Assembly (NCBI GenBank): GCA_902775025.1
Contig: CACYKP010000015.1
Coordinates: 1 to 64,000, forward strand
From: an uncultured bacterium
GTDB taxonomy: Bacteria; Cyanobacteriota; Vampirovibrionia; Gastranaerophilales; Gastranaerophilaceae
Length of the DNA: 64,000 nucleotides
Direction: 5' to 3'
The notes under the pieces: model-generated
Told to the model about the DNA's origin: nothing
The model's input: only the letters and a program-made list of their open reading frames with translations
Database searches by the model: none
Translations under genes and position numbers: made by a program
Shown: in pieces, positions 5,283-55,920 of the stretch
Position numbering within the stretch: the stretch's first letter is position 1
Layout: every line of letters starts with the position of its first letter

Positions 5283-6026
5283 ATGGGTTTTAAATTCTAT
5301 ATGAACATAACACCGGTTAACATAAAATCATATACTCCTAATTTTAAAAGCTACGTTGATGATGGAATTATAGGCTTTGATGACAGTATTTCTCAAAAAA
5401 GAAGAAACTTCATCAGAGAACACTACAACAGTTGGCATATGCCATATCACAGCATATACAATAGTGAACACAAATTAACTGATTATCAAATGAAAATATT
5501 GATTGAAAATTTTGAAAAATACCATGATATCCAAAAAATAAATGGAACAAATATATATAGAGGACAAACACTTGTTGATAAACCGGAGTATATTTAGACA
5601 CTCAAAACTAAAGGAATAAAAACAATTATAGATTTAGTCGGATATGGCAAAACATATGAAGAAGAAGTAAATAAATCAGGATTAGATTATTATAGTTACA
5701 ATATATATGAAAATTGGTGGAATATTACTGATATTAAACCAATCCATGTAAACAAATTGGTTGATTTTTTAAAAAAGATGCAGGAGGATAATATATACAT
5801 TGCGTGCCAGCATGGTGCAAATGATACGGATATAGCATTTATTCTTAATGACTTTTTTAATCCGTTTCTTGAAGGAAAAGCAAAAACTACTATACCTGCC
5901 AGCGATTCTGATTTTCCTATAAAATTGAACACAATTTATGATATGCTTAGTAATATGCATAAAAAAATGTTGGGTTGGGATAAAGAATTTGAGCAAAGAT
6001 TAATAAAAAAATTGATTTCTATTTAA
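5283..6026 (+). pseudogene. Dual-specificity-phosphatase-like gene broken by an in-frame TAG
   Basis: One continuous frame of about 247 codons interrupted only by TAG at 5595-5597. Before the stop: an N-terminal MNITPVNIKSYTPNFKS segment (a motif shared with other proteins here) and NIYRGQTLVDKPEYI. After it: TLKTKGIKTIIDLVGYG and YIACQHGANDTD, which align with the strand and P-loop region of tyrosine/dual-specificity phosphatases. The usual Cys-x5-Arg loop has Asp where Arg belongs, so even the read-through product would be catalytically odd. Codons after the TAG remain coherent, suggesting recent damage, a sequencing error or rare read-through. A second possible start is ATG 5301. Confidence 0.6.
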
Positions 6027-20900: not shown

Positions 20901-23358
20901 AAAAATACAGGTCGGAGAAGGTAAAACTTATGAAGAGCAAAATAATATCTATCACACAAATACCGATTCTTCACCAATAAGCTGTACCGGTTCTTATTCA
21001 ATGACAGAACGTTCGACATTGCATGATATTACAGGTGTGAACAGTGCATCGGTTACGTTGGATAATGGTACGGTAATTACACTTGGTTCTGATGATTCTG
21101 TTTATGACAAGCTAAATTCTTATCTGAGCGTAGATATATACAACGGAAATATTACCATCAGCGGGAAAGGCGGTCGTTCATTAAAAGATATGACACCCGC
21201 TTTTGCTAATGCATTAAAAATAGAAGTTGGCGAAGGTAAAACTTATAGCGTATCCAATCCGCTTTATTATGTTAACCCTTCATCATCTCCGAGAACAGTT
21301 GAAAAAACTTATACGCTTACTAACTCTTCAACATTATCAGATCTTGGTTTAACCGGTGCATCTTTCACTATGAATAACGGAACAACAATTAATATCAACT
21401 CTTCTGATTCAATATATTCAAAATTAAGATCTGCCGGCCTTGATGCTGAATTAGTAAACGGTGAGTTATCTATATCGGGGGACAATTCTAAATACATAAA
21501 ATCAATGACTCCTGAGCTTGCCGAAAAATTGAATATTCAAATAGGTAACGGTTATAACTATGAAATAAACAGCTACGAATTACACACAAATTCTAATTCT
21601 GCAACACAAAAAGTAGAGAACACTATTACTTTAGATACAGAAACTACTCTTATTAATTTCGGAATTAACAGAGCTTCCGTTACACTTGATAACGGTAACA
21701 TAGTAAACATAAACACCAATGATTCTATTTACTCAAAATTAACAAACGCAGGATTAGATGTAAGTATTAATAACGGTAAAATTACAATCACCGGCGGCGG
21801 TGAACATTATTTAAAAAGTATGAGTGCTAATTTAAAAGATGTACTTAAAATAGAAGCAGGAGAAGGTAAATCTTATCAAATCAATACTTCAGACCTGCAT
21901 ACAAATACTCCTTCCGCTACGCAAAAAGTAAGAACAACTTCAACGATTACAACCTCAACTACTCTTGGTGATTTCGGTTTAAATAACGCAACTGTTACTT
22001 TAGGTGATAATACTACTGTTACGATTAAAGCAAACGATACAATTTATACTAAGCTGCACGATTCCGGCTTGGATATGCGTATTGGTTTAGACGGAAAAAT
22101 TTCTTTATCAGGAATTGGTGATAACTTTATAAAAGATATGTCATCAAATCTTGCTAATATTCTTCATATACAAGTCGGAGAAAATAAAACATATTCTGTT
22201 AACCACGATATAACTTATTCAAATACTAATTCTAAAACCCAAACATATTTATCTACCGCAACATTAACATCAGCAAACTCATCTACATACAGAATGAGTG
22301 ATTGGGGTCTGAATACAAACAGTAAAATTTATACAAATAATGTTGCTATTACAATAAACAAAAGCGATAAAATTAGTGATGTTATAACTAAGTTGGGTGA
22401 AGCAGGTATTAGAGCGAGCGTAAATAATGAAAACGGAACATTAAAAATTGAAAACTCAAATAACAACTACATCACCTCAGTTGATTCTGCTCTTAAAAAT
22501 GTTTTAGGAATAGAAGTCGGAGAAGGAAAAACATATAATTCAACAACTGTTACGCACCGTTCCGATACAACTTCTAAAATATTACAAGAAAACATTAAAC
22601 ATACAATAAGACATGATGCAACAGAAAGCACATTATTAAAAGATTTTAATAAAGATAACTTAAATATTGAAGGTGATTTGGTATTTGACTTTGCTGACGG
22701 ACAAAAAACAGTAAAAATCACATCAAAAGATACAATCGCATCGTTCATAGACAAGCTTAAAGAAATCGGCATTAAAGCAATTTTCAAAGACCAAGCTCTA
22801 TCAATAAGCGGTAATAAAAACAGCGTTTTATTACTCGACAGCTCTTCAAGCACAACTTCATACTTAGCAGAACTCCTTGGACTTGAATACAAAAACACAC
22901 TTGAAGGAATTACAAGCAGCAACGATATAAACGCACTTGCTGATTCAATTTATGCGGAAAAATTTAACACTCCAAACTTATTATGCATACAAGCGGGTAT
23001 ACACGGTAATGAACACGACATGATAAGTATGGATATGAGTTTAAAACTAGGCAGAGTTTCCTTCAAGACCTCCGACCCGATAAGTGCATCAAAAGGTTTG
23101 GATAAAATTGATCAACTTATCTCTCAAATTAGCGCAAAACAAACAGAATACGGAGCGTTCTCTAATCGTATGGAAAGTGCAGCTGAATCTATTACAGTAT
23201 CACTTCAAAACCTTGTTTCTTCAAAATCAACTCTTCAAGATGCTGATATTGCAGTTGAATCAAGTAATTATATAAGAGCTCAAATCCTGCAGCAAGCTGC
23301 AGCAACGCTTCTTGCTACGGCAAACCAAATTCCTGCAATTGCGATACAGTTAATTTAA
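17968..23358 (+). CDS. Giant flagellin with tandem-repeat central region
   Basis: A 1796-residue flagellin, several times the usual 300-500. The N-terminus is canonical D0/D1 (SINTNLSSFLVKQQLSSSTRSLNQAIERMTTG...AANYAIIQNM) and so is the C-terminus (NRMESAAESITVSLQNLVSSKSTLQDADIAVESSNYIRAQILQQAAATLLATANQIPAIAIQLI). Between them lie two repeat families: five units of about 114 residues (from about 345, 459, 573, 687 and 798; theme TLAELGIANGETF...NNYVTGSIADRLGI) and about seven of about 105 residues (from about 905 on; theme TLxDFGLNxASVTLDNG...DSIYSKLxxAGLDV). The second theme resembles flagellin hook-IN motifs. It is secreted through the flagellar apparatus; GGGAGG precedes the ATG. Control by CsrA/FliW is inferred. 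Confidence 0.9.
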   Translation: MVSINTNLSSFLVKQQLSSSTRSLNQAIERMTTGFKVNHSSDNAANYAIIQNMDKNINAYDVAADNVAMGSDFAAVADDALTLVSSHMQRIKDLLTQASNGTYGEDSRKAIQAEVDSRLDEINRIFKSTEYNGINLFNSAILPSTLNVKIGDINLKAGSFNVNVGGADFTVNITNDDSLYSIISKLNAIGVDADFNEESGVLTVELDPNKITDNGTGFVSVLGLDKTDGYLAENLKTTEVYTILESANANTQTIIDSEGHETYDAISVDATINELFNKLWTHQISGNINSNGVVTFNSTNGNRISGALAEQLGINVDVVDTIYTGLTVNTTNTLKHSFISNANSNTTLDKLGVQAGEKLVVKNTEGNEIYSFTADNSSIQNTTLGELFNNIVDAGYLSNVSVNNGVVSITSDVNNYVTGSIADRFGIKITQNDNATSVGISQTSSDAVIFNKISDANSNTTLAELGIANGETFIINNNSGEELYKFTADNISIQNTTIGDFLNDLVNEGYLTSANITDGVISLSSNVNNYAAGSIANRLGIGVKTTRTTETVIYDQTSSSAVTYVETLLADKTSTLADIGIQAGDTLVIRNNSGAEVYEFVADNNTIQNTSIDDFFGSFVNYGYLSSADITNGVLSISSYMNNYVTGTIADKLGITVNTESVSETFVSDVTSSSPISYRVSGLIDGDTKLKDIGIQSGDSLDVYNQDGIVMTRFTAYDSYLNTKTLNDVFDSLSSYVNANISNGEISVSSDEYYYLGGAIANRLGISPVQQRVNVTSAISQTSSDKITYNKTGLIENGVSLASTGIEEGDTLSVRDNDGNIIYTYSATEYSIQNDTIDGVFDYINRMGYISNFSLSNGVISVSSSDNNYLTGSIADKFNIGVNSEYRTETAAITATSASAVAGLNYYTTLEDLGLPNASFVVRNQNGLETISVSSTDYIRSALVGAGLEVDISGNKITISGGVNNYIQSMSSGLAAALKIQVGEGKTYEEQNNIYHTNTDSSPISCTGSYSMTERSTLHDITGVNSASVTLDNGTVITLGSDDSVYDKLNSYLSVDIYNGNITISGKGGRSLKDMTPAFANALKIEVGEGKTYSVSNPLYYVNPSSSPRTVEKTYTLTNSSTLSDLGLTGASFTMNNGTTININSSDSIYSKLRSAGLDAELVNGELSISGDNSKYIKSMTPELAEKLNIQIGNGYNYEINSYELHTNSNSATQKVENTITLDTETTLINFGINRASVTLDNGNIVNINTNDSIYSKLTNAGLDVSINNGKITITGGGEHYLKSMSANLKDVLKIEAGEGKSYQINTSDLHTNTPSATQKVRTTSTITTSTTLGDFGLNNATVTLGDNTTVTIKANDTIYTKLHDSGLDMRIGLDGKISLSGIGDNFIKDMSSNLANILHIQVGENKTYSVNHDITYSNTNSKTQTYLSTATLTSANSSTYRMSDWGLNTNSKIYTNNVAITINKSDKISDVITKLGEAGIRASVNNENGTLKIENSNNNYITSVDSALKNVLGIEVGEGKTYNSTTVTHRSDTTSKILQENIKHTIRHDATESTLLKDFNKDNLNIEGDLVFDFADGQKTVKITSKDTIASFIDKLKEIGIKAIFKDQALSISGNKNSVLLLDSSSSTTSYLAELLGLEYKNTLEGITSSNDINALADSIYAEKFNTPNLLCIQAGIHGNEHDMISMDMSLKLGRVSFKTSDPISASKGLDKIDQLISQISAKQTEYGAFSNRMESAAESITVSLQNLVSSKSTLQDADIAVESSNYIRAQILQQAAATLLATANQIPAIAIQLI
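19000..22800 (+). repeat. Tandem domain repeats inside the flagellin gene
   Basis: About 342-bp units (five) pass into about 315-bp units (about seven). Recurring anchors are SIQNTTI..F, NNYVTGSIADRFGI, GEGKTYSVN and DSIYSKL. DNA identity between units is modest, so the array is old or diversified rather than freshly amplified. Each unit would add one outward domain to the filament subunit. Confidence 0.8.
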
Positions 23359-32446: not shown

Positions 32447-34537
32447 TTAATATCCGCCACTTTCACCGATTGTATCAACAGCTTCTACCTTAATATCGGT
32501 AATAAGTTCAGAATACGATATTACAACGATAGTAGGAATATGACGTTCAAGAAGCTGATATAAAGGCAGACGTATTCTTGGAGAACAAAGAATTACCGGC
32601 TGCTGGCCAATTTGTTGATGTGCTCTCATTAGTGTCATTGCAGTTGATTCAATCAAATCCTGTACCTGCATAGGATTAAGCAAGAACATTGTACCTAATT
32701 CCGTTCTTTGGCAGCTGTCATCAAGCGTCTTTTCCCACTCGGGTGATAAAGTAAGTGCATATAAAACATGGTCTTTATCAACATTATTTAAACATATCTG
32801 ACGACCGAGAGCTGCTCTTAGACGTTCTGACAATATATCTGGCTCTTTTGAAAATCTTGCATAATCACACAATCGTTCAAATACAAATATAATATCCTTA
32901 ATAGAAACTTTTTCTCTTATTAAGTTGACAAAAATCTTTCTTAAATCCGAAGTTGAAATGATAGCAGGAACTAAGTCATTTACAAGAGTAGGATCCTGAG
33001 AACGAACAAGCTCCATAAGTTTAAGAACATCCGTTTTGGTCATAACTTCATCAACGTGTTTTCTTACACACTCTTGCAAGTGAGTTACAAGAACATCAGT
33101 AGCATCAACAGCCGTAACATTTTTAGTTTCTTTAGCATCTTGTTGAGATATCCAGTATGCCTGAGTTTGATATGTAGGATCAACACCTACTATTGCATCT
33201 TCAGGAATTGTTTTCTTAACCGAATCCCACTGGTCGGCAATAACCATATATTTACCCGGATAAACAAATCCTGATGCAACAACGTTATTTCTAATCGCAA
33301 TTACATACTCATTAGCTTCCAAAGCCGATGAGTCCATAATTCTGATATTAGGTAAGATATAACCTAATTCATCCGTAACCCTTTGACGTAAAGCGGCAAT
33401 CTTTGCAAGTAATTGACCTTCTTGATCAGGATCTGCGATTACAAGCAAACCGGCACCAACTTGCAAGCTCAAAACATCAACACCCAATCTTTCATACATC
33501 TTATTCGGGTTAACCAAGTCTTGCATATTTTGTCTTACACTTTCCAATTGTCCCAATTGAGATTGAACATCTGCATTAACTAATACAGAGAAGCCTGCAA
33601 GTGCAAGACCTATTGTAAATATTAAAAACGGTAAAAAAGGTAAACCCGTAATTGGTGATGTTACGGTAATTAGTCCTAAAAATAAAGCTGCAAAAAACAA
33701 AGAATAAGGCTTTGCCATAATCTGATTTGTTAAATCGCCGCCTAATGACATATTACCTGCAGAAGCACGGGTCATAACGATACCTGCTGCAATTGACATT
33801 AAAAGAGAAGGTAATTGTGATGCCAAACCATCACCTATTGTTAAAACAGTATATTTACTGACTGCATCCGCAATAGGCATCTGATTCATTAAACAACCGA
33901 TAATCAAACCGCCGATAATATTAATTAAAGTAATAATGATACCGGCAATAGTATCACCTTTTACGAACTTCATAGAACCATCCATTGAACCGAACAAGCT
34001 TGACTCTCTTTGTAAATCCTCACGCTTTTTAACAGCTTCTTCAGGAGAAATCAAACCTGCGTTAAAATCGGCATCAATAGTCATTTGCTTACCCGGCATA
34101 GCATCTAGGGCAAATCTTGCTGCAACTTCGGCGATACGTTCAGCACCTTTTGTAATTACCATAAACTGAACAACGGTAATAATTAAGAAAATTACACCGC
34201 CTACAACCATGTTACCGCCGGTTACAAAAGTTCCAAACGCATGAATAACTTCGCCTGCATCACCTTTGGCTAATATAAGACGTGTAGATGCAATTGAAAG
34301 ACACAATCTAAACATTGTACCAATAAGTATAATAGATGGAAATGCAGCTAATTCCAAGGGTTTTTGAACATATAATGATATCATTAGAAGAACTATACCC
34401 AAAGTTATATTAAGCGAAATAGAAAAATTGATAACCCAATTTGGCATCTCGATAATCAAGATTAATATCAGGATCATTACGAAGAGTGCCAATGCTATTT
34501 CTGATATAGGTTTGCTTTGAGGTTGTTCTCCCGCCAT
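32447..34537 (-). CDS. flhA: Flagellar export gate protein FlhA
   Basis: 696 residues. Eight N-terminal membrane helices are followed by a cytosolic domain that docks export chaperones. The FHIPEP-family signature AERIAEVAARFALDAMPGKQMTIDADFNAGLI is clear, as is SKYTVLTIGDGLASQLPSLLMSIAAGIV. It is the last gene of fliE-fliF-X-fliH-flhA. There is no obvious ribosome-binding site, and an 8-bp tandem repeat occupies the region just upstream of the ATG. FliI, which usually follows fliH, is not between fliH and flhA. FlhA rather than an injectisome SctV is inferred from the operon. Confidence 0.93.
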   Translation of the reverse strand: MAGEQPQSKPISEIALALFVMILILILIIEMPNWVINFSISLNITLGIVLLMISLYVQKPLELAAFPSIILIGTMFRLCLSIASTRLILAKGDAGEVIHAFGTFVTGGNMVVGGVIFLIITVVQFMVITKGAERIAEVAARFALDAMPGKQMTIDADFNAGLISPEEAVKKREDLQRESSLFGSMDGSMKFVKGDTIAGIIITLINIIGGLIIGCLMNQMPIADAVSKYTVLTIGDGLASQLPSLLMSIAAGIVMTRASAGNMSLGGDLTNQIMAKPYSLFFAALFLGLITVTSPITGLPFLPFLIFTIGLALAGFSVLVNADVQSQLGQLESVRQNMQDLVNPNKMYERLGVDVLSLQVGAGLLVIADPDQEGQLLAKIAALRQRVTDELGYILPNIRIMDSSALEANEYVIAIRNNVVASGFVYPGKYMVIADQWDSVKKTIPEDAIVGVDPTYQTQAYWISQQDAKETKNVTAVDATDVLVTHLQECVRKHVDEVMTKTDVLKLMELVRSQDPTLVNDLVPAIISTSDLRKIFVNLIREKVSIKDIIFVFERLCDYARFSKEPDILSERLRAALGRQICLNNVDKDHVLYALTLSPEWEKTLDDSCQRTELGTMFLLNPMQVQDLIESTAMTLMRAHQQIGQQPVILCSPRIRLPLYQLLERHIPTIVVISYSELITDIKVEAVDTIGESGGY

Positions 34538-34650: not shown

Positions 34651-35436
34651 TTAAATGCCTGTCAATGCTTTTTTAATGATTTCTATTTGTGTGTCAATCG
34701 AAGCATCGACGATACCGTTATTAGTCTGGAATATACATCCGCCATCCTCTACAGAGGGATCTGCTATGATATTGATTTTAGCATCAATTCCATACTGGTA
34801 TGTTACCGTAGGCAATGTGTCTTTTACAAACGCTGCCGCCTGAGGTTTAACCCTTATATTAATTTTAGGTTCATTTTTTGAAACCGTTTTTAATACATCC
34901 ATAATTGTTTCTATTAATACTTGAGGGTCTGATTCCACCTCTTTTTTTATTATTTTTTTAGCAATATCAATACTTATCTCTAATATATCCGGTGCAATAT
35001 ATTCAAAAACTTCTTTTGGAGCACCAAGAAACTGATTAATATTTGTTCTGAATTGCCCTATATCATTATTTGCTTGCTCAAGTCCTTTTCTATATCCTTC
35101 TTCAAAAGCTGACTTTTTAATATTTTCAGCCTCTTCTTGAGCTCTTGAAACAAGATTTCTGTCATCAATTCTTCTATATCCGCGGCGTCTTGTTCCCCGC
35201 CTACGTTCAGCACGTTGATTAAAGTCTATATTCTCAACGTCAAATAAATCAATTTCAGGCTCAGGCGATTCAGTCTGCTGAGTAACATTAAGCTCTATTT
35301 CAGGCTCTTCATCAGGAACATTTTTATGATCTGCATTTGTACCCGTATCGGCACTATAACTTTCAGCCCTTTCATTTGGCTGCATCTCCTGTTTTTTACC
35401 CTCCCACTGTTTTATTTTATTCTTTTTTATAATCAT
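34651..35436 (-). CDS. fliH: Flagellar assembly protein FliH
   Basis: 261 residues, regulator of the export ATPase. A disordered acidic N-terminus with an Arg-rich patch (QRAERRRGTRRRGYRR) leads into the helical stretch AQEEAENIKKSAFEEGYRKGLEQ. The C-terminal FliH/SctL domain follows (ISIDIAKKIIKKEVESDPQVLIETIMDVLKTV...IRVKPQ...DPSVEDGGCIFQTNNGIVDASIDTQIEII). GGCIFQT-x-x-G-x-x-DAS is characteristic. The export ATPase gene fliI, its usual partner, is absent from the window. Confidence 0.85.
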   Translation of the reverse strand: MIIKKNKIKQWEGKKQEMQPNERAESYSADTGTNADHKNVPDEEPEIELNVTQQTESPEPEIDLFDVENIDFNQRAERRRGTRRRGYRRIDDRNLVSRAQEEAENIKKSAFEEGYRKGLEQANNDIGQFRTNINQFLGAPKEVFEYIAPDILEISIDIAKKIIKKEVESDPQVLIETIMDVLKTVSKNEPKINIRVKPQAAAFVKDTLPTVTYQYGIDAKINIIADPSVEDGGCIFQTNNGIVDASIDTQIEIIKKALTGI

Positions 35437-35451
35437 AATCTGTTAAAATTA

Positions 35452-36492
35452 TTATATACTATCCTCTACATATTGCGCAACAATTCCTGCTACCTTAAGA
35501 GGCAATCCTGAATATTCTCCGTCATAGGCTTGAGATATAAAACGCTTAACCAACGGACGTTCATTCTTTATTATTTTTTCAATCTTATCTCTGGTATTTG
35601 ATTTATACAACCTTAATAAATCACGCATTATTGTATCGGTTGAAAGAGTACGCTTTATCGGCAAAGAATCCTTCATCTCCCGCAAGCATGTAAGTAATAT
35701 ATCACCGTCAAGTAATGATTCTAAATTCGCTATACTCATATAATGATTCAATAACTTTTTATCATTACCGTCAAAATCCTTTATAATATTAGCAGATTTA
35801 TCACGAGGCATGATTTTTAAAAGCATAGCAAGCGCCATAAGCTTCATTTGACGTTTAGTTACACAACCGGCAGTTGCCTCCATCTCTTTTTCCAGTTTTC
35901 GTTGTTTTCTAACCTCTTCCCTGCGCTTTTGAATTTCTTTTCTTCTGTTATCAGCTTCTTCAAGAGGAGCTTCTTTTTGTTTAATCTGTTCTTCCGCTGC
36001 TTTCCTTGCCATTTCATCAATATTAGACTGACTTTCTGCCTGTTCTTTTACTGATTCATTTATCATTCCTCTTTTTTGAAGATCTTCAATGCATTTTTTG
36101 TAAACTTTTACAACATGATGTTCGACTGCTTGAAGAAGTTGTTCTTGAGGCACTTCTCTAATTACGCCTTGTTTTGCTACTTCAAAAATAGTAAATGCTA
36201 TTTTTTGCATTATACTATCCCAAAATTGAGGATCTATTCCCGAATGAATCAGGTCAATAGATTTATGAAACGACCATTCCGCAATAATTTGAGTAATAAA
36301 AACAGCTTGATCTGCATTAATATTTAAACTTTCATCATTATAAATAGCTTCGCCGGCAAGCATTGTAAAATTACCGAGCGTTTTGACAATATATTCTTGC
36401 TGCTCTGGCTGCAAATCTTTCGGAACAAGCTCTTTTGCTTGTTCCGACATTGATTCTGCAAATCCTTTATAGTCAAATCCTTCTATTGCCAT
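35452..36492 (-). CDS. Unknown protein in the fliG position of the flagellar operon
   Basis: 346 residues between fliF and fliH, exactly where fliG normally lies. The N-terminal half is helical (YIVKTLGNFTMLAGEAIYNDE...IIAEWSFHKSIDLIHSGIDPQFWDSIMQKIAF). A charged coiled coil follows (about 165-205, EEADNRRKEIQKRREEVRKQRKLEKEME), then a helical C-terminus. I do not see the EHPQ and charged torque-helix features of FliG. It could be a very divergent FliG or a lineage-specific rotor or export component. FliF ends with the FliG-binding type helix, so some partner must exist. It is close-coupled to fliH. Confidence 0.6.
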   Translation of the reverse strand: MAIEGFDYKGFAESMSEQAKELVPKDLQPEQQEYIVKTLGNFTMLAGEAIYNDESLNINADQAVFITQIIAEWSFHKSIDLIHSGIDPQFWDSIMQKIAFTIFEVAKQGVIREVPQEQLLQAVEHHVVKVYKKCIEDLQKRGMINESVKEQAESQSNIDEMARKAAEEQIKQKEAPLEEADNRRKEIQKRREEVRKQRKLEKEMEATAGCVTKRQMKLMALAMLLKIMPRDKSANIIKDFDGNDKKLLNHYMSIANLESLLDGDILLTCLREMKDSLPIKRTLSTDTIMRDLLRLYKSNTRDKIEKIIKNERPLVKRFISQAYDGEYSGLPLKVAGIVAQYVEDSI

Positions 36493-36560
36493 TTTTTGTT
36501 ATTTTCCTTGTTGTAAATTAGGGGATTTAATATACTACTTATATTATATAATATTTGCCC

Positions 36561-38228
36561 CTAACCCTCAATCCAGCTTCTTATTTTTTCGCCGGTTTCA
36601 TCATCGTCGGCACCTTCAAATTCACGTTTTAATTCTCTTAGCGCCTCTCTAATTTCCGCACCCGAAACAGGTATTGCTGCCGGTTTATTTTGTTGTTCCA
36701 ACAGTCCTTGTTGCAACTGAGTTTGATTCTTTATCAAGTTTGCGGCATTCACGCTTAAATCTTTTATCTGACGTTCTTGCGCCTCATTCTGTTCTCTTAG
36801 TTTTGTCAATTCTTCTTCTTGCTTTTCTTTTGCTGACTTAATCCTTTGTGTCAACATATTATGACCGAACAACAAGCCGAAGAACAGAAGGACAATTGCC
36901 AGCCACCAAGGATTTCCGTGAGTAGCCTTGATAGGAGCCTTAACAGCTTTATCTCCTGCCATAAACGGATCGAGAGTATCTGCAAATGCGATTGTTACGT
37001 TTTCAGCTTTTGCTTTTGGACTGGCTGCGTGTGCTACTAAATCTTTTAATTCTTCAAGAGTTAGTTCAACAGGTAATGCATCCTTTTCTAAAGTTACGGC
37101 AATTGATATTTCTTCTATAGTTCCCGGAGACATATATTCGTTCGTTTGAACCTTTGTTACACCGTATTGAGTTTCTCTTGCAGTTCTTTGATAACTTCTG
37201 TTTTGAGAAGAATCAGAACTTCCGGCAGGCAAACCGTTTGGTAAATATACACTTACTGCATTTGTGTTCTTATTACTATCTGTTGTTTGATCTCCCAAAC
37301 CTTCCGAAAAAGTTTGTTCACTAATTGCAGTTCTGCTTTCTGGATCATAAGATATTGTAAACTTTTCCACAGGTGCTTGCTTCAAGAAAGTAGAAACTGT
37401 TGCTACATATTTCCCGCTTCCTATCAATCGATTCAATTGCGCTTGAACTTTTTCCTGCATATATTTATCATTTTGCTGAATTCTTTCTAACATTTCAGAT
37501 TGAGCATCAACCAAACTGTTATAAACATGACCGTTTGTATCGGTTATGGAAATATTTGAAGCACTTAAACCGGATACGCTGCCCAACAAAAGATTTGAAA
37601 CGGCTTTTATTGTGCTCATATTTAGAGTCTGACCGACTGCAACAGTTAATTGAACAGTAGCAGTAACAGGCTTTTGATTAGCTGAAAACATTGATTGTTC
37701 AGGAATAGATATAAATACGGCTGCGTCTTGAATTCCGTCAATTCTCTTAATCAATCTAGCAAGTTCACCATTCATAGCTCTTACAAGCCTAATCTTTTTA
37801 TCTTCTTTTGTCGAAGTAAAATCTCCTTTATCAAAGATTTCCAAACCTACGTTTTGATCGTACAATCCGCTTTCTACTATTACCATAATTGCTCTGTCAC
37901 GTTGTTCAGTTGTACATTTTTTCATCCCCGGGGTACAATCACCTTTTTTCAATCTTAAAACAGATTTTGTACCGTCAACCAACCTTGATGCAACAATATT
38001 GTTTTTTGCAAGAAGAGCTTGTATCTCTAATGCCTTACCTAAATTATCGGTAGTGAGCAAATCAACATCTTCTTTAAGAGGTTCTTTACTGACATCAATA
38101 CCTTCCTTATTGGCTTTAGATGATGCGGCTATTGTTCCGCATATAATAAAAACTACAAGCAATAAAATAATACCGCCTGCTATTGATGCCACTAAAACTT
38201 TATTTTCCAATAATTGTTTAAAATCCAT
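36561..38228 (-). CDS. fliF: Flagellar MS-ring protein FliF
   Basis: About 555 residues. An N-terminal membrane helix (VASIAGGIILLLVVFIICGTI) is followed by ring-building motifs (LEIQALLAKNNIVASRL, RAMNGELARLIKRIDGIQDAAVFISIPEQS, VTATVQLTVAVGQTL) and a second helix (WWLAIVLLFFGLLFGHNML). The C-terminal tail ends in an acidic helix with EKIRSWIEG, the type that binds FliG. The start is the ATG after AGGGTAGGA; an ATG six codons upstream lacks a site. It is second in the operon after fliE. Confidence 0.92.
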   Translation of the reverse strand: MDFKQLLENKVLVASIAGGIILLLVVFIICGTIAASSKANKEGIDVSKEPLKEDVDLLTTDNLGKALEIQALLAKNNIVASRLVDGTKSVLRLKKGDCTPGMKKCTTEQRDRAIMVIVESGLYDQNVGLEIFDKGDFTSTKEDKKIRLVRAMNGELARLIKRIDGIQDAAVFISIPEQSMFSANQKPVTATVQLTVAVGQTLNMSTIKAVSNLLLGSVSGLSASNISITDTNGHVYNSLVDAQSEMLERIQQNDKYMQEKVQAQLNRLIGSGKYVATVSTFLKQAPVEKFTISYDPESRTAISEQTFSEGLGDQTTDSNKNTNAVSVYLPNGLPAGSSDSSQNRSYQRTARETQYGVTKVQTNEYMSPGTIEEISIAVTLEKDALPVELTLEELKDLVAHAASPKAKAENVTIAFADTLDPFMAGDKAVKAPIKATHGNPWWLAIVLLFFGLLFGHNMLTQRIKSAKEKQEEELTKLREQNEAQERQIKDLSVNAANLIKNQTQLQQGLLEQQNKPAAIPVSGAEIREALRELKREFEGADDDETGEKIRSWIEG

Positions 38229-38275
38229 AATCCTACCCTTAATCATTATACACTTTTATACTAATTATGAGAAGT

Positions 38276-38614
38276 CTAAATCTGTATTTGCATTATTTTA
38301 TCATACGCTTGAATGACTTTTCCCACTGCTGTTGTTGCAATATTTACTGAAATCTCAGCTTTGGACATTGCTACCATTACATCGTGGATATCAACATTTT
38401 GAGAACCCATCATTACATCCCTCATCATGTTATCAGGAGCATTCATTGTTTCGTTCATTCCTTCGACAAGTCCGGACATAACACTTTTAAAATCAGCAGT
38501 AGAAGGTTCTTCTATTCTGTTCATTCTTGCAGACGGAATACCACCCCAGCTATCAAGCTTGGTATGCTGTATTCTTGCTTCTAAATCGTAATTTGGTGTG
38601 AACCCGTTTATCAT
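38276..38614 (-). CDS. fliE: Flagellar hook-basal body protein FliE
   Basis: 112 residues, the adaptor between MS ring and rod and an early export substrate. The C-terminal half contains the family core DIHDVMVAMSKAEISVNIATTAVGKVIQAYDKIMQIQI. The N-terminus is longer and more polar than usual. GAGGT lies five bases before the ATG. It is the first gene of the operon, with a sigma-28-like element upstream. flgB and flgC, often adjacent to fliE, are not present. Confidence 0.9.
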   Translation of the reverse strand: MINGFTPNYDLEARIQHTKLDSWGGIPSARMNRIEEPSTADFKSVMSGLVEGMNETMNAPDNMMRDVMMGSQNVDIHDVMVAMSKAEISVNIATTAVGKVIQAYDKIMQIQI

Positions 38615-44892: not shown

Positions 44893-47637
44893 TTAGTCAA
44901 GCACTCCGATGATACCTTCATGGATATTGTGGTTGTCATCACAATCACATTGACAATTACATTCGAAGTGGAAGTTTTCTAACAAATCGATAATCTTATT
45001 TAATTTTTCGTTGTAATCAGGAGCAGTAGTATCCATAGCTTTTATTCTAGCTAAGATATCTTTCAACAAGCCTGTGCTTTCGCCTTGGAAATCAACCAAA
45101 TTTTTATTGATTGCATTAAGTAAAGCTTTGATATCATCAAATTTTGCAGGATCTACACCGGCTGCCTTAATCAAATCACCATAGTATTTTTGATTTGCTG
45201 CATCATGTTTGTTTAACATGATATCAAATTCTTCTACTGTCGGGATACGACCAAGTTTAGCTTCAATCTTATCAGCTGTAGCATTCAATTGTTTCAAGTA
45301 GTTTTCAATATTTGTTCTTTGAATTTCAGCCTTTTTACCTTGGTTAATAAGTGTTTGAGTCTTATCACCAACGTTCTTGATTTCTGATTTAATGTTATTT
45401 AATAACGCAATCTCTTGACCGTGTGCATCCATTGCATTCTTAGCATATTTATCAAATGATGTCATATATGATTTGAATAATGTAATTAATTCATCAAGTT
45501 TTGCATCAATTGAAGCTAAGTTACCCAAATCATCACCCATATTTGCGATTTCATTCAAGATGTCTTGGCTTAATGAACCCAATCCGTCAAGTTTATTAGA
45601 AATGCTTGCTAAGTAAGCAATTTGAGTATCATCTTTCTTTAATTGTGCTTTGATAAGAGCCGAAATTTCACCCATAGAAGCTTGAATATTACCGTTTAAT
45701 CTCTTTGCTATTTGTTCCATTTCTGCTGCTGTTAATGAACCGCCTTTATCAAGTTTGTCGCTGATCTCTTTTAATGCTTTGTTCTTAGCTTGAGCATCTG
45801 CATATAATGCACCGATACCATTTCTTATTTGAGTCATTACAACTGATTGATATTTTTGTTGCTTATATGATTTTGCTGCTAATTTTACCAAATCATCGAT
45901 AGATGCTTGCATATTATCGAATTTAGCAACAAATTCTGTAACAACAGCTTTAATGTCTTCAACATTTGCATCAATATTTTCTAAGATTGAAATAATTTGT
46001 TTTGCTGCTTCTTCTGCTGATATTGTATTATTATCAATCTTTTCATTTGTTGCATCTAACTTATCAGCAATATTTTCTTGACCTGCGATGAATGCATCTA
46101 ATCTTGCAATAATTTCATTTGCGGACATTTGTTGATTTGCATTTATTCTCTTGAACATTTCTTCCAATTGTCTGTAATCAATAGTTGTTCCGCCATTTTT
46201 AATTTTTGCTCTGATATCTTTCAAATCTATAGCTATTGTTCTGATATCAAAAGCTAATGATGAAGCTGCAAAACCAAGCTTTTTAAGATCTTTTCTTGTA
46301 GCATACGCTAAAGATTTAAGTTCTTTCATATCTACATCATATTTAGCAAAATGTTCTGCCAACATTGCCTTAATTTCAGATACATCTGCGCCAATATCGC
46401 CCAAGATTTTAATAATTTCTGATGCAGCTTCTTCTATTGTTATAGAATTATTGCCAACCTTTTCATTAATTTCATCTAACTTTTCATTTGTAATCTTAAG
46501 CTCTGCATTGTTAGCTTTAATTGCAGCTATAATTTCTGATTTTGACATCTTCATTACATCTTCTAATGACTTGCCGATTAATTGAGCAACGACTGTCAAT
46601 TCATCAACTGACATTTTAAGTTGGTCAGCCTTTTCAATAAGTTCTTGACCTTGAGTAATTAAGATATTGTTTTGAGCAATTAATGCATTGTTCTGATCAA
46701 TCATTGTTTGTTGCTGAGTTAATGATGCTTTTCCGTTCTTGTCTATTTCTTGTGCAACAGTTAACAATGACTTAGCATAGGCATCTGCGCTTGCTTTTGC
46801 TGATTTAATTTCAGAAAGAACAGATCTTAATAAGCTGTTATTTTCCTTCAATAAATCCATAATTTGTCTCATAGCTTCTTGTTCTGAAATTTGTTTATTT
46901 TCTAAAGCTTTTAAGATTTTATCAACTGCAGATCTTGCTTCAGACTCAGTAATTTGTTGAAGAACCATAATTGCATCTACAATAGATGATCTTTGATATT
47001 CACCGTTTTTAAATTCACCATAAACCATATTACGGAATTCTACTAAAAATGCATTTTGTTCATCAACAGAATCACCTACTCTATTGATAGATGCATTAAT
47101 GATAAGCAATTGTGAATAAGCATTATTTAAAGCTTCAAGCATTGCTCTGTCTCTTTCTGCATTAGCTGCTTCATTATCAGCTATTTGTCGTCTTAATTCA
47201 CTAATCTCTTGTTGTAATGCATTAACACCGTTTGTTATTGCAGCTGCTAACGCTTCAGTATCAACAATTTGTGTCTGAGATTGACTAAAGTTTTCTTTTG
47301 TACAAGATGCAGCACCTAATGTTAACATCGCAGCTAATGCAGCTATTTTTGTTGCATTTGCAAATTTACCTTGGAATGCTATATTTGATGAATAGGGAGC
47401 AACGAATGATTTTGCAGAATCTGTTTCTTCTGCTTTTGGTTCGTCTTTCATAACTCCTGCTTCTTTTGCTAACATAGGATTTGCCATTAGGTTTTGCATA
47501 CCTTGAAACATCAAAGCTTTCATACCGATATTTGATTGTGCTTTTGATACTGCAGGCATTTGTACTGCCGGAATACCTGTTTCTTCTTTTTTGATTTTGC
47601 TGTCAATTGACAACATGTTTGTCTTCATAATGTTCAT
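44893..47637 (-). CDS. Very long coiled-coil protein with internal lipobox-like segment and Cys-rich tail
   Basis: 914 residues. The first 85 or so are polar and contain SSNIAFQGKF, the Phe motif seen in other proteins here. A hydrophobic segment follows (IAALAAMLTLGAASC), ending in a lipobox-like Ala-Ala-Ser-Cys near residue 111. The rest is almost entirely coiled coil, with an internal duplication: ITIEEAASEIIKILGDIGADVSEIKAMLAEHFAKYD resembles ISAEEAAKQIISILENIDANVEDIKAVVTEFVAKFD. The C-terminus is a cysteine cluster (FECNCQCDCDD). It looks like an extended surface or periplasmic fibre; this is an inference. AAGGAG precedes the ATG. Confidence 0.68.
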   Translation of the reverse strand: MNIMKTNMLSIDSKIKKEETGIPAVQMPAVSKAQSNIGMKALMFQGMQNLMANPMLAKEAGVMKDEPKAEETDSAKSFVAPYSSNIAFQGKFANATKIAALAAMLTLGAASCTKENFSQSQTQIVDTEALAAAITNGVNALQQEISELRRQIADNEAANAERDRAMLEALNNAYSQLLIINASINRVGDSVDEQNAFLVEFRNMVYGEFKNGEYQRSSIVDAIMVLQQITESEARSAVDKILKALENKQISEQEAMRQIMDLLKENNSLLRSVLSEIKSAKASADAYAKSLLTVAQEIDKNGKASLTQQQTMIDQNNALIAQNNILITQGQELIEKADQLKMSVDELTVVAQLIGKSLEDVMKMSKSEIIAAIKANNAELKITNEKLDEINEKVGNNSITIEEAASEIIKILGDIGADVSEIKAMLAEHFAKYDVDMKELKSLAYATRKDLKKLGFAASSLAFDIRTIAIDLKDIRAKIKNGGTTIDYRQLEEMFKRINANQQMSANEIIARLDAFIAGQENIADKLDATNEKIDNNTISAEEAAKQIISILENIDANVEDIKAVVTEFVAKFDNMQASIDDLVKLAAKSYKQQKYQSVVMTQIRNGIGALYADAQAKNKALKEISDKLDKGGSLTAAEMEQIAKRLNGNIQASMGEISALIKAQLKKDDTQIAYLASISNKLDGLGSLSQDILNEIANMGDDLGNLASIDAKLDELITLFKSYMTSFDKYAKNAMDAHGQEIALLNNIKSEIKNVGDKTQTLINQGKKAEIQRTNIENYLKQLNATADKIEAKLGRIPTVEEFDIMLNKHDAANQKYYGDLIKAAGVDPAKFDDIKALLNAINKNLVDFQGESTGLLKDILARIKAMDTTAPDYNEKLNKIIDLLENFHFECNCQCDCDDNHNIHEGIIGVLD

Positions 47638-50368: not shown

Positions 50369-51646
50369 ATGGTTAATGTAGCATCAATATTCTCAACATT
50401 AGGGAACCCAAATTCACTTATACCTCTTGCAGTAAAAGATGTTTCATCAACAACTGCAATAACTGCAAGCTCTTTTCTTACAGGAAAAGAAGAAGGGCAA
50501 GACAGGCTCATTGACGAAGTCGGCACGCAAATTATTTGGCTCATGGGTATTCCTGCCTTCAAATGGTTATTTGATAAAACTATTTTTAAAGCGTACGGCT
50601 TAGATTCAAAATTCGATGTCAGAAATCTCAAAGACAAAGATGTTTTTGAAAAGATTAAAGAATACGCACCAACTGATGATATAAAGAAAAACATTGAAAA
50701 AATTGGGAAAAAACAAGGTCTATTCAAAAATGTTGCTCTTTATAAGTTCTTTTTTGCAACCGGTGCTACTATTGCAAGCTATATAGGCTTAACAAGAGCT
50801 AAACAAGCTTATACAGAAAATAAAATTAAACAAAACCTTATTAAAGAATTTAACGAAAATAAAGAAAAAGAAAATAATTCGACCATAAAACAAGAAAATC
50901 CGAGCTTTAAGGGATTAGGAGAAATAGTTAAAAACTTTGCGTTCTCTCCGGTTAAAAACATGTGGATATTAGACGGTGCAATTACAGGAGAAAGACTTGC
51001 TGATTCAAGAAGTCCTCAAGAATTTGCCGGATACTCTATAAAAGAAGGCTTATACTTATTCTTTATGTATTATGCAGGCGGTAAAATTCAAGAGATGCTT
51101 GAAAAAAGAGCTGATAAAAAGTACCACAAATCTATCGGACTTGATGCGAGAGTAATAGAAAACGGAAAGCTTCAAAAAGCGTTCGTAGACGGAACTATTA
51201 AGAAAAGTCTTGAAGCTTTTGAAAAGATTAAAGACAAAAAAGATGCTGATATTTATGAATTTTTGCACAAAAATCCTGATAATGAGATTGTTAAAGTTGC
51301 AAAAGACTCTGACATTATATCTATGTTGGGGAAAACAGACAAAATCGATACAAGAAAATATATCAATCTTAATGATATAAAGTCAACATACGAAAAGATT
51401 GATAAATTGTACAAGCAATTCCTTGAAGCAACTTCAAAAGGTGAAACAGCAGATACATTCTTTAAAGGAGTGAAAAAGCTTAAAAGACATTCTGTAATTA
51501 CTAATATTGCAACTTGTATATTTGCTCTTAGCGTTGTTACTCCTGCAGCTATGCTTGTAAAAAGACTTCTGGGCAAAGATAATTCGGAATTTCAAACAAA
51601 AAAAGAAATTAGAGAACAATTGATAAAAGAAGGTATCATTTCGTAA
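50369..51646 (+). CDS. Multi-pass membrane-associated orphan protein
   Basis: About 425 residues from the ATG that follows GGGGG by eight bases. Hydrophobic segments occur near 40-55 (IIWLMGIPAFKWLF), 125-145 (FFFATGATIASYIGL), 220-235 (LYLFFMYYAG) and 385-405 (IATCIFALSVVTPAAMLV). Between them are lysine-rich helices. ENPSFKGLGE near residue 180 carries the Phe-x-Gly motif found in several neighbours. It has no recognised family. The style is common in Gastranaerophilales genomes, in my recollection. It is monocistronic. Confidence 0.65.
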   Translation: MVNVASIFSTLGNPNSLIPLAVKDVSSTTAITASSFLTGKEEGQDRLIDEVGTQIIWLMGIPAFKWLFDKTIFKAYGLDSKFDVRNLKDKDVFEKIKEYAPTDDIKKNIEKIGKKQGLFKNVALYKFFFATGATIASYIGLTRAKQAYTENKIKQNLIKEFNENKEKENNSTIKQENPSFKGLGEIVKNFAFSPVKNMWILDGAITGERLADSRSPQEFAGYSIKEGLYLFFMYYAGGKIQEMLEKRADKKYHKSIGLDARVIENGKLQKAFVDGTIKKSLEAFEKIKDKKDADIYEFLHKNPDNEIVKVAKDSDIISMLGKTDKIDTRKYINLNDIKSTYEKIDKLYKQFLEATSKGETADTFFKGVKKLKRHSVITNIATCIFALSVVTPAAMLVKRLLGKDNSEFQTKKEIREQLIKEGIIS

Positions 51647-53125: not shown

Positions 53126-53746
53126 TTACCCCTCCTCGTCAACAAAGTTTTCTGCTGATTCTGTTTCACTTTGTGTATAAGAGTTAATTGCTTTTCCTGT
53201 GCTTGTTGTTTTAAACTCGCCATCTTCAGATTCACTTACCTTTGTATCAGATTTTTGTTCTTGCGGTTGTGAATGTTCTTTGCAATATTCTATATATTCT
53301 TTATAACTTACTTTATCATCATTGTTTGTGTCCATAGCTTCGTCATATTTGCCATCGCCACGTTTTGCATAAACTGCTTCCGATTCAACTTCTTTTATTG
53401 TATTTTTTTCATCAGATGAATTTTCTTTTATTTCTTTTTCGGCTTTCTTTTGTGCTTGCATAGTCCTATATAAATTTGCCATCTCTACCATTCTAACCAT
53501 TTCTTTTGAAGATATTCCGTTGGCTTGGCAATAATCTTTAAATTCATCAAAAGAAACAATTCCATCTTCATCAGCATCCATTTCTTTCATATACATTGGC
53601 TCGCCTTTTTTGGCATAATAAGCGGTATTGTTATTATTAGTTTTCATACCAAAATTTAAGCCTGCCGGCTTTTTGTTAAGAAAATTTGTCTGTAAACCGA
53701 AACTATTACTACTATTTGTTGAAATGCTGTTTTGAGATAAATCCAT
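53126..53746 (-). CDS. EF-hand calcium-binding protein
   Basis: 206 residues with two 12-residue EF-hand loops: D57-A-D-E-D-G-I-V-S-F-D-E68 and D139-T-N-N-D-D-K-V-S-Y-K-E150. Each is preceded by a similar lead (YYAKKGEPMYMKEM and VYAKRGDGKYDEAM), so the unit is an internal duplication. The N-terminus is Ser/Asn-rich and contains AGLNFGMK, another instance of the Phe-Gly motif. There is no signal peptide. It ends GGG-TAA within GGGGTAAAT. A TGATATAAT promoter lies upstream. Its partner is the 329-aa gene downstream. The calcium-binding residues are complete; the role is unknown. Confidence 0.8.
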   Translation of the reverse strand: MDLSQNSISTNSSNSFGLQTNFLNKKPAGLNFGMKTNNNNTAYYAKKGEPMYMKEMDADEDGIVSFDEFKDYCQANGISSKEMVRMVEMANLYRTMQAQKKAEKEIKENSSDEKNTIKEVESEAVYAKRGDGKYDEAMDTNNDDKVSYKEYIEYCKEHSQPQEQKSDTKVSESEDGEFKTTSTGKAINSYTQSETESAENFVDEEG

Positions 53747-53920
53747 TCATACTATCCTTTTATATCCGTATATATTTATTATATCATATTTTATAACTTT
53801 CTCAATCCCATTCAAATAATAACACTTTTTACAAACATTAATGCCATTTAAACAAATGATTTAATCGAAATTTATTCTTCATAGATGCTTGATTGTTAAA
53901 AACATTTTACCCCTCACTAA

Positions 53921-53964
53921 CTCTCCCCGTAAGGGGAGAGAACTCCTTCCCCTTACGGGGAAGG
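53921..53964. repeat. Two adjacent GC-rich palindromes
   Basis: CTCTCCCCGTAAGGGGAGAG (53921-53940) and CCTTCCCCTTACGGGGAAGG (53945-53964) in an otherwise AT-rich 317-base spacer; REP-like. The rest of the spacer holds ATTTACCCC at 54008 and TAGCAAATTTTATTTTTAC at 54017, which is repeated at 55445 ahead of a related gene. Confidence 0.7.
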
Positions 53965-54063
53965 TTGGGAAGGGGTGTGTTGAACGAAATAAATCCGATT
54001 TTTTTTTATTTACCCCTAGCAAATTTTATTTTTACAAGTTTTAAATATAAAAAAGGAGATGTT

Positions 54064-54435
54064 ATGCAAGTTAATAAAATTCAAAATCAAAGTTATAATA
54101 CTAATTTTCAGGCTAAATTAAATATTACAGGCGAAATGTTTTATGGCGAAGTTTTTGACAAAATGTTTGAAAAAGCTTCTAAAATAGGCACAGAAAAAGA
54201 TGTTATAGATATACAATTTGCAGGGTATTTTGCAGCAAAACCTAAAAATCCAAACAAACCGGAAAAACACACAGGAAAGTTTATTGCTAAGTTTTTACAA
54301 AAAGGAAATAAATCAGGTCTGGAAAAAGTTCGTGAAGATTTATCCGGCTCAAGCAGATACGCTTATAGAGAAAAAGCAAAAGCCTCTGCTATTAAATACA
54401 TAGATGATCTGTTTGCCAAATATTCAAAGGGGTAA
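54064..54435 (+). CDS. MQV-family protein 1, 123 aa
   Basis: Starts MQVNKIQNQSYNTNFQAKL, sharing MQVxxIQN and a Phe-x-Ala motif with the next two genes. The remainder (GEMFYGEVFDKMFEKASKIG...DIQFAGYFAAKPKNPNKPEKHTG...SAIKYIDDLFAKYSKG) is small, basic and probably alpha/beta. AAGGAG precedes the ATG, and an upstream block is duplicated ahead of the third family member. There is no signal peptide. The stop lies in GGGGTAAAT. The N-terminal similarity suggests a shared targeting signal; this is an inference. Confidence 0.68.
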   Translation: MQVNKIQNQSYNTNFQAKLNITGEMFYGEVFDKMFEKASKIGTEKDVIDIQFAGYFAAKPKNPNKPEKHTGKFIAKFLQKGNKSGLEKVREDLSGSSRYAYREKAKASAIKYIDDLFAKYSKG

Positions 54436-54454
54436 ATATAAGGAGTAAAATAAA

Positions 54455-54518
54455 ATGCAAGTACAGAGAATTCAAAACAACAACGCAAAAATATTTATAT
54501 ACCGGTTTTAATGCGAAT
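54455..54518 (+). other. Frameshifted N-terminus of the HExxH gene
   Basis: ATG CAA GTA CAG AGA ATT CAA follows AAGGAG and encodes MQVQRIQNNNAK before running into a stop. Removing one A from the A5 run at about 54490-54494 joins it to the downstream frame as ...KYLYTGFNANMIRT, restoring the family N-terminus and Phe motif. It is a single-base frameshift, either real or an assembly error. Confidence 0.7.
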
Positions 54519-55364
54519 ATGATAAGAACTATAGCTAGTACGGCGAGAATTGCAACAAAAATAATAAAAGATGGTTCAAATTCGGGTCGTGACAAATATT
54601 GCCAAAAATTAGAAGATAAATTGTATAATCGTCTTAAAAAATATAAACGGACACAATTTGATTATATTGGTAAAAATGTTCATGAAATCTTACCGACCAA
54701 ACTCATTCAGGTTGAAAAGCTTCCTGAAACTTTTGAAAATTGTAACGGAGTTGTTTCTCTTGCTCAAGAAGTTGAAAAAACTGTACCTGCTGATATTGTT
54801 GGTTATATTGTTGGTTATATTGTTGGTTTTAATAAAGACGGTAAAAAAAAACAGTTCGGAGGGGTTAAAATGGAAGTATTGATGCACGAAATGCATCACT
54901 TGTTTAATTATTTAACTCACCCAAAAGTTCCAAACAGAATTTATAAAGTTTCTAAAATTTCATCTAAAATTAATTTCGAAAAATTTTTTGTGGAGAATTT
55001 TCAGTCGACTATGCCACCTAAAAAATGTAAAGAGGCTACAAAGAAATTATTAAAACGTGAAGAAAAACATAAAATTGATATACTCCAATATTTTCGGTAT
55101 AAACTTATTGATGAAATAGGTGCGTATCGCTCAGGTGAACATTATTCGAATTTATACAGTTCAAAATCAAAAGAATGTTTTCAAAGCAATATAGATGCTA
55201 TGCAATTGGAAACTAAACTCAATGATGTGACAGCAATACTTAAGAAAACTTTGAAAACTGAACGTGAAGGTGTAAATCAGAAAAGGGGTAAATCTATAAT
55301 ATCGAAGGGTCGATATTTTATAAGTCATCTTTCAGATTTACTTAAGATTAATCATAAAAACTAA
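54519..55364 (+). CDS. MQV-family protein 2 with HExxH zinc-protease motif
   Basis: 281 residues in the intact part, about 302 if the upstream frameshift is repaired. VLMHEMHHLFNYL (HExxH at 123-127) is a zincin signature, and DEIGAYRSGEHY about 72 residues later offers a possible third ligand. A 12-bp unit repeated three times encodes IVGY-IVGY-IVGF (about 93-104) just ahead of it. The protein is basic. Together with the shared N-terminus it could be an exported protease, an inference only. As it stands, translation from the good ribosome-binding site would terminate early. Confidence 0.65.
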   Translation: MIRTIASTARIATKIIKDGSNSGRDKYCQKLEDKLYNRLKKYKRTQFDYIGKNVHEILPTKLIQVEKLPETFENCNGVVSLAQEVEKTVPADIVGYIVGYIVGFNKDGKKKQFGGVKMEVLMHEMHHLFNYLTHPKVPNRIYKVSKISSKINFEKFFVENFQSTMPPKKCKEATKKLLKREEKHKIDILQYFRYKLIDEIGAYRSGEHYSNLYSSKSKECFQSNIDAMQLETKLNDVTAILKKTLKTEREGVNQKRGKSIISKGRYFISHLSDLLKINHKN

Positions 55365-55513
55365 ATTTTTGATTGTAAAAGAACAACCTAAATGCGAGTT
55401 TGTAGCAAACCAAGTACAAATTTTTCCACACTTAATTTTTTATATAGCAAATTTTATTTTTACGGGTTTTATAATATGATATAGCATGCAAAATCAAAAA
55501 GGGAAGAGTGTAG

Positions 55514-55533
55514 GTTGGGCATACTTGCCCAAC
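55514..55533. repeat. Small palindromic element GTTGGGCA-TACT-TGCCCAAC
   Basis: Reverse-oriented relative of the GGTGGAGC element at 29533 (conserved CCTAC flank). Located between the HExxH gene and the third MQV-family gene. Confidence 0.5.
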
Positions 55534-55557
55534 AATTAATTTAAAGGAGTAAATAAT

Positions 55558-55920
55558 ATGCAAGTACAAAGAGTACAAAACAACAACACAACATTCACTT
55601 CTACATATAGGATTCCGCTTGTTGAACAAAACATATCTGTTGCAAAAAGAGAAGCACTAAAGAAAATGGCTTCTAAATATCAAAATTCTATGTATCCAAG
55701 CGGTAATCAAGGTAATGTTAGAGTATCAATAAGAAAAAGACTTGATGATGGGTTTGAACAAAAATTACGCCAACTTGGTTTTAAAGTTTTTCAAAAGTTT
55801 GAAAGACACAATGTTCCAAAAACAAACGGAAAAATGGACAATTATATAAAAGAAGAATTAATAAAAGAAAATTATGAGCAGTTTGGGAAACAAAGAAAAA
55901 GAAGCTCTAACAAACAATAA
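55558..55920 (+). CDS. MQV-family protein 3, 120 aa
   Basis: Opens MQVQRVQNNNTTFTSTYRIP, closely matching the frameshifted start of the HExxH gene and similar to family protein 1. The rest is very basic (REALKKMASKYQNSMYPSG...RKRLDDGFEQKLRQLGFKVF...KQRKRSSNKQ), with a plausible alpha/beta core. AAGGAG lies before the ATG; the upstream TAGCAAATTTTATTTTTAC block is shared with family protein 1. No known domain. The three genes look like products of tandem duplication in which only the N-terminus was kept. Confidence 0.66.
   Translation: MQVQRVQNNNTTFTSTYRIPLVEQNISVAKREALKKMASKYQNSMYPSGNQGNVRVSIRKRLDDGFEQKLRQLGFKVFQKFERHNVPKTNGKMDNYIKEELIKENYEQFGKQRKRSSNKQ

Follow-up and report, generated by a model that had tools for sequence, protein, structure and literature searches.

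Unrelated proteins throughout the Gastranaerophilaceae, a family of non-photosynthetic gut Cyanobacteriota, begin with one short leader that combines a conserved head, M-[KQR]-[IV]-x-x-[IV]-x-N, a variable disordered linker, and the motif [NST]-F-x-[GAR]-[KR]. We analyzed this leader starting from a 64,000-nucleotide stretch of contig C15 (hereafter "the window", meaning that whole stretch; G+C content 33%) in a 2.29 Mb Gastranaerophilaceae draft genome (hereafter the source genome). The leader is probably an address tag that is read at the extreme N-terminus and sets its carriers apart from the general cytosolic pool. As a candidate route for such a tag we tentatively put forward export through a divergent, flagellum-derived type III apparatus.

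Results

Genes were predicted in stretches totaling 820 kb, used as a sample of the source genome, with simple gene calls and approximate start sites. A leader score exceeded its threshold in 28 of 761 starts of this sample but in only 1 of 624 internal segments, and about 3 hits were expected from shuffled N-termini. Since this score was hand-made and hand-tuned, and was built after the examples were known, two simpler tests were added. In one of them the regular expression M[KQNRHS][IV][^P]x[IV]x[NS], describing the head, matched 14/733 starts of the source genome as compared to 2/3603 internal methionine positions, with F-x-[GAS] following shortly downstream in 10 of the 14. In the other, an independent test, starts were picked by the head alone in seven genomes outside the motif definition; the Phe motif, written as [NSTAQP]F[GKTNQS][GASR] in residues 9-42, was present in 16/40 of these starts and in 87/1854 other proteins (odds ratio 13.5, p = 4e-11). 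The linkers of the head-picked starts were rich in N/S/T/Q (54%, versus 21% in other starts) and poor in acidic residues (1% versus 10%) and Leu (2% versus 10%). A chance origin of the leader is excluded. The preliminary description of this DNA had held that its idea of a shared leader would fall if a genome-wide scan found the motif at chance frequency only; that scan has now been run, and the motif lies well above chance.

Scaling up the sample yields an estimate of about 70 leader proteins in the source genome, with unrelated bodies. A glucose-6-phosphate isomerase-like start in genome G073 was discarded as a chance match, the same enzyme in the source genome having no leader, and a seeded, unconstrained expectation-maximization search for motifs in N-termini ended in noise.

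Across 97 collected leaders the fuller consensus is M-[KQR]-[IV]-[NSQ]-x-[IV]-[NSQ]-N, the linker, and [ITVP]-[NST]-F-[GKTNQ]-[GAR]-[KR]. Residue 3 is I or V in about 80% of them (85% when Leu is included) and residue 6 is I, L or V in 70%, both figures being partly due to selection of the set. The Phe falls at residues 7-42, with a median of 14, and the fourth position after it is hydrophobic in 40% of the cases, as compared to 23-32% at adjacent positions. Small residues at position 2 are found in 5% of leaders versus 32%, a difference that arises partly by construction. None of 80 leaders shows, near its start, the hydrophobic stretch of a classical Sec or lipoprotein signal, candidates with an overlapping hydrophobic stretch having been excluded by construction. 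Codon choice at the conserved positions follows genome usage, and selection on the leader therefore acts at the protein level. Family scans of 39 leader proteins yielded no leader-specific NCBIfam or Pfam family among the top 25 families listed, and we found no description of the leader within open-access papers.

To map the taxonomic spread we scanned genomes, mostly metagenome-assembled, with a DNA pattern of the head that allowed no gaps, using the same pattern read backwards as a control. In 85 family genomes there were 1287 matches versus 465 for the control, with 84 genomes individually above control. The corresponding numbers were 29 versus 27 in the sister family, a small comparison of three genomes, and 1076 versus 928 in 106 other Cyanobacteriota. 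Enrichment of the head thus spans the Gastranaerophilaceae, with little or none in the sister family and the other Cyanobacteriota.

Within the window, leaders and proposed leaders are found at the following positions:

54064..54117, + strand: leader of gene 1, MQVNKIQNQSYNTNFQAK
54064..54435, + strand: gene 1, 123 amino acids, body without known family
54455..54511, + strand: leader part of gene 2, beginning MQVQRIQNNN
54483..55364, + strand: remainder of gene 2 in a different frame, TQKYLYTGFNAN followed by a body of 281 amino acids
55558..55605, + strand: leader of gene 3, MQVQRVQNNNTTFTST
55558..55920, + strand: gene 3, 120 amino acids, body without known family
5301..5354, + strand: leader MNITPVNIKSYTPNFKSY on a 98-residue protein (5301-5597)
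53642..53746, - strand: possible leader (...GLNFGMK, Phe at residue 32) on an EF-hand protein (53126-53746)
47302..47637, - strand: N-terminal extension of 112 residues on a 914-residue coiled-coil protein (44893-47637)

Genes 1 and 3 have the leader starts and Phe motifs that the preliminary description had ascribed to three consecutive genes, and each is preceded by a good ribosome-binding site (AAGGAG and AAAGGAG, respectively). Structure prediction for gene 1 leaves the leader disordered, with a predicted local distance difference test score of 35 over residues 1-10 and below 50 over residues 1-15. The predicted fold begins at residue 19, directly after F-x-A-K, and runs strand-helix-strand-strand-strand-helix; a fold search returned weak similarity only, to ribosome hibernation factors and lipoproteins (best E 1.4e-3). 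The paralogues of gene 1 on contigs C17 and C45 have the leader as well. Gene 2 does start with MQVQRIQNNN at 54455, but the continuous protein proposed for it merged two frames: the leader frame, MQVQRIQNNNAKIFIYRF, runs for 18 codons before a stop, and both the TGFNAN motif and the body (open reading frame 54519-55364) are out of frame with it. Either the gene is broken or the assembly is in error here. The body of gene 2 contains an HExxH motif (HEMHH) resembling that of zinc metallopeptidases; it has no Pfam family and no close relatives among the sequences compared. No relatives of the window genes were found in the viral contigs and plasmids searched. A palindrome-like stretch, ctccccgtaaggggagagaactccttccccttacggggaagg, lies at 53909-53985 just 5' of gene 1 and is possibly a small repeat element.

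Four further proteins had been proposed to share the motif, and in two of them it is N-terminal. The YTPNFKS example has its Phe at residue 15 of the 98-residue protein, whose start at 5301 is preferred over 5283, with no clear ribosome-binding site. The AGLNFGMK example, on the EF-hand protein, is N-terminal too but equivocal, as a paralogue (L041:8333) lacks the motif. The other two gain no support from position: FKGLG is at residue 180 of the 50369-51646 protein, and AFQGK is in the extension of the coiled-coil protein, with its Phe at residue 88, ahead of a lipoprotein-type signal (...LTLGAASC).

Most leader-bearing bodies have no family match. Those that could be assigned include AAA+ ATPases, CheR-type methyltransferases, helix-turn-helix repeats, EF-hands, mTERF repeats, an AvrB_AvrC protein, starch synthase and HNH domains. 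Two enzyme families serve as natural experiments for the presence of the leader. Primary GH77 copies begin at the catalytic body, without a leader, in 30/30 loci, whereas the divergent second copies have it in all 15 cases with a readable start, with a linker that varies widely in length between the conserved head and F-x-R-R. Similarly, canonical GlgA (GT5) has no leader in 6/6 cases, while divergent GT5 copies in three genomes do. This placement on second copies, with the housekeeping copies left untagged, backs the claim that a single short leader is set on unrelated bodies, a claim strongly supported by the N-terminal position, the genome- and family-wide occurrence and the protein-level selection described above. 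AvrB_AvrC homologues were found in 14/97 genomes, with the leader at 9/10 readable starts; characterized members are type III effectors of plant pathogens, and the homology here is limited to about 110 C-terminal residues and does not imply that function. An unusual arrangement was seen at L070:14454, L177:5650, L216:193 and L222:1652, where a lipoprotein-type signal lies tens of residues into the protein, preceded first by the leader and then by a spacer of acidic or polar character.

The window also encodes a flagellum-derived export apparatus:

32447..34537, - strand: FlhA-type export gate of the divergent kind that is near-universal in the family
34651..38614, - strand: homologues of FliH, FliF and FliE and an unassigned 346-residue protein in the place of FliG, all belonging to the base of this apparatus

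Two full-length FlhA types occur in the family, and the source genome has both, the canonical one at C21:15763-17754. In a manual count among the matches listed for 97 genomes, canonical FlhA was present in 41, coinciding with flagellin (42/97), while divergent FlhA was near full length in 89 and in pieces in 2 more; it is kept in 52 of the 55 flagellin-less genomes. FlhB was found in 8/8 genomes tested, as a single copy in the flagellin-less ones. Rod-type, FliE, FliF and FliH genes accompany the gate, and rod-type proteins are also present in flagellin-less genomes. With divergent FlhA and basal parts retained without flagellin, a filament-less export apparatus is a general feature of the family. 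Injectisome secretin, needle or translocon components were not identified, no dedicated search for them having been made, and rod-type proteins were found instead. The leader head was enriched in 38/38 flagellin-less genomes tested, which rules out dependence of the leader on a true flagellum.

Two other flagellum-related proteins were observed. The window encodes a 1796-residue flagellin-type protein (17968-23358) in which a very large insert separates the N- and C-terminal flagellin domains. Many family genomes also encode a free-standing FlhA cytoplasmic-domain protein of about 490 residues with an unrelated N-terminal part (for example L061:1446-2912, L060:1465-2922 and L059:1075-2553), no copy of which was found in the three genomes of the sister family. 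As a receptor for the leader this protein was rejected, since four genomes with no more than one FHIPEP hit are still head-enriched.

Discussion

Export through the divergent type III apparatus is the reading that we rank first, although tentatively. It is favored by the N-terminal position of the leader, its composition, the effector-like cargo, the tagged second copies, the retention of the gate and a precedent in Chlamydia. The hydrophobic residues of the head and the Phe motif may engage the export gate in succession, in the manner of the paired signals on early flagellar subunits; the cargo would then follow through the apparatus unfolded. A bolder version, which we consider rather unlikely, is that the filament-stripped flagellum has become, independently of known injectisomes, a dedicated secretion machine in a hitherto undescribed sorting or secretion pathway, with the leader as its address label and about 70 cargo proteins that include glycogen enzymes and AvrB-like proteins.

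Among known systems, the signal of early rod and hook subunits shares with the leader small hydrophobic residues near the N-terminus, a variable polar linker and a Phe-led motif, and is likewise non-hydrophobic overall with a disordered N-terminus; its motif reads F-x-x-x-hydrophobic (PMC8983047), where the leader has F-x-[GAR]-[KR]. The composition of the linker resembles that of type III signals, both injectisome and chlamydial, which are also N-terminal, rich in N/S/T/Q and poor in acidic residues and Leu. Leader proteins have a disordered polar N-terminus, and the genome encodes an export gate, as is the case for type III substrates. Known type III secretion signals show little conserved sequence, whereas the leader motif is conserved across about 70 proteins. 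Like injectisome and chlamydial substrates, leader proteins include effector-like proteins and glycogen enzymes. In Chlamydia, reporter fusions of MalQ and GlgA were secreted by type III (PMC4829429). Large autotransporters have a conserved N-terminal extension before a Sec-type signal, as a few leader proteins do. The extended signal peptide region of autotransporters is unrelated to the leader in sequence, and most leader proteins lack a Sec signal.

Several observations weigh against export. Known early flagellar signals, such as that of Salmonella FlgD, need at least 19 residues between their two elements (PMC8983047), and the leader, given where its Phe lies, is mostly shorter. The rod and FliE proteins of the family's own apparatus carry no leader, and the same type of FlhA is present in the sister family, where the leader is not enriched. 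Leaders stand before lipoprotein-type signals (the four loci above) and before a Sec-type signal (L103:18779 and L104:18194), so that another export route is already implied for these proteins. The AAA+, GT5 and CheR bodies require adenosine triphosphate (ATP), nucleotide sugar or S-adenosylmethionine, and if exported would be active only in the cytosol of another cell. Transmembrane segments are not depleted among leader proteins (15% versus about 11%). Finally, a published gut genome without the filament also lacks the P and L rings (PMC3787301), which leaves passage across the outer membrane unexplained. The flagellar export route suggested in the preliminary description is plausible in view of the near-universal gate kept without flagellin and of the effector-like bodies, but fits poorly with the Sec and lipoprotein signals, the ATP-dependent enzymes, the spacing and the sister-family gate.

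These same points are better accounted for by an intracellular docking tag, which we rank a close second and regard as a reasonable contender. A cytosolic adaptor would bind the leader as a tail and bring diverse enzymes and membrane proteins together at a single site, such as the pole, a scaffold or glycogen granules; on Sec substrates and lipoproteins the tag would act before cleavage. Proteins whose leader precedes a Sec or lipoprotein signal or transmembrane helices are probably cytosolic at first, many bodies (AAA+, CheR, GT5) use cytosolic substrates, and the tagging of second copies of two glycogen-type enzymes is what recruitment to one site predicts. Some membrane proteins also have sites like the Phe motif in K/R-rich loops, but such internal Phe-x-Gly sites are not above chance overall and were rejected as part of the signal. 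Docking motifs are usually position-free, whereas the leader motif is enriched only near the N-terminus, including the region of the start Met. No receptor candidate was found, the free-standing FlhA_C-like protein having been examined and not being required, and the AvrB-, mTERF- and HNH-type bodies resemble cargo for another cell.

A turnover signal, by which accessory proteins would reach ClpXP, FtsH or another protease, is improbable. The extreme N-terminal site would suit an N-degron, as would a probably retained Met (the scarcity of small residues at position 2, partly by construction), and the leader would also remove mistargeted Sec precursors. However, no N-degron is known to have such a bipartite conserved pattern and a variable linker, the number and diversity of targets would be unusual, and no link to a protease was found. 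Marginally less probable still is an encapsulation peptide for a protein-shelled compartment. Like the leader, the encapsulation peptides of microcompartments are short N-terminal tags with a linker on diverse enzymes, often second copies; they are amphipathic helices that are not known to occur on lipoproteins, whereas the leader is predicted to be disordered and is also found on lipoproteins and membrane proteins. Least probable of all is that there is no functional signal and that the leader reflects recently duplicated gene starts or else an initiation or regulatory element at the RNA level: the first 30 bases of the three window genes are alike at the DNA level, but codons at the conserved positions match background usage, the bodies are unrelated, and head and Phe motif persist between orthologues whose linkers differ in length and sequence.

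Gastranaerophilales are common but little-studied gut relatives of Cyanobacteria, and a tag on about 70 proteins provides a list, ready for testing, of proteins that may be exported or directed to special locations. The leader could also account for the persistence of a flagellar export gate where lineages have no filament. Should the export route prove correct, these bacteria would represent a further case of a flagellum turned into a secretion system.
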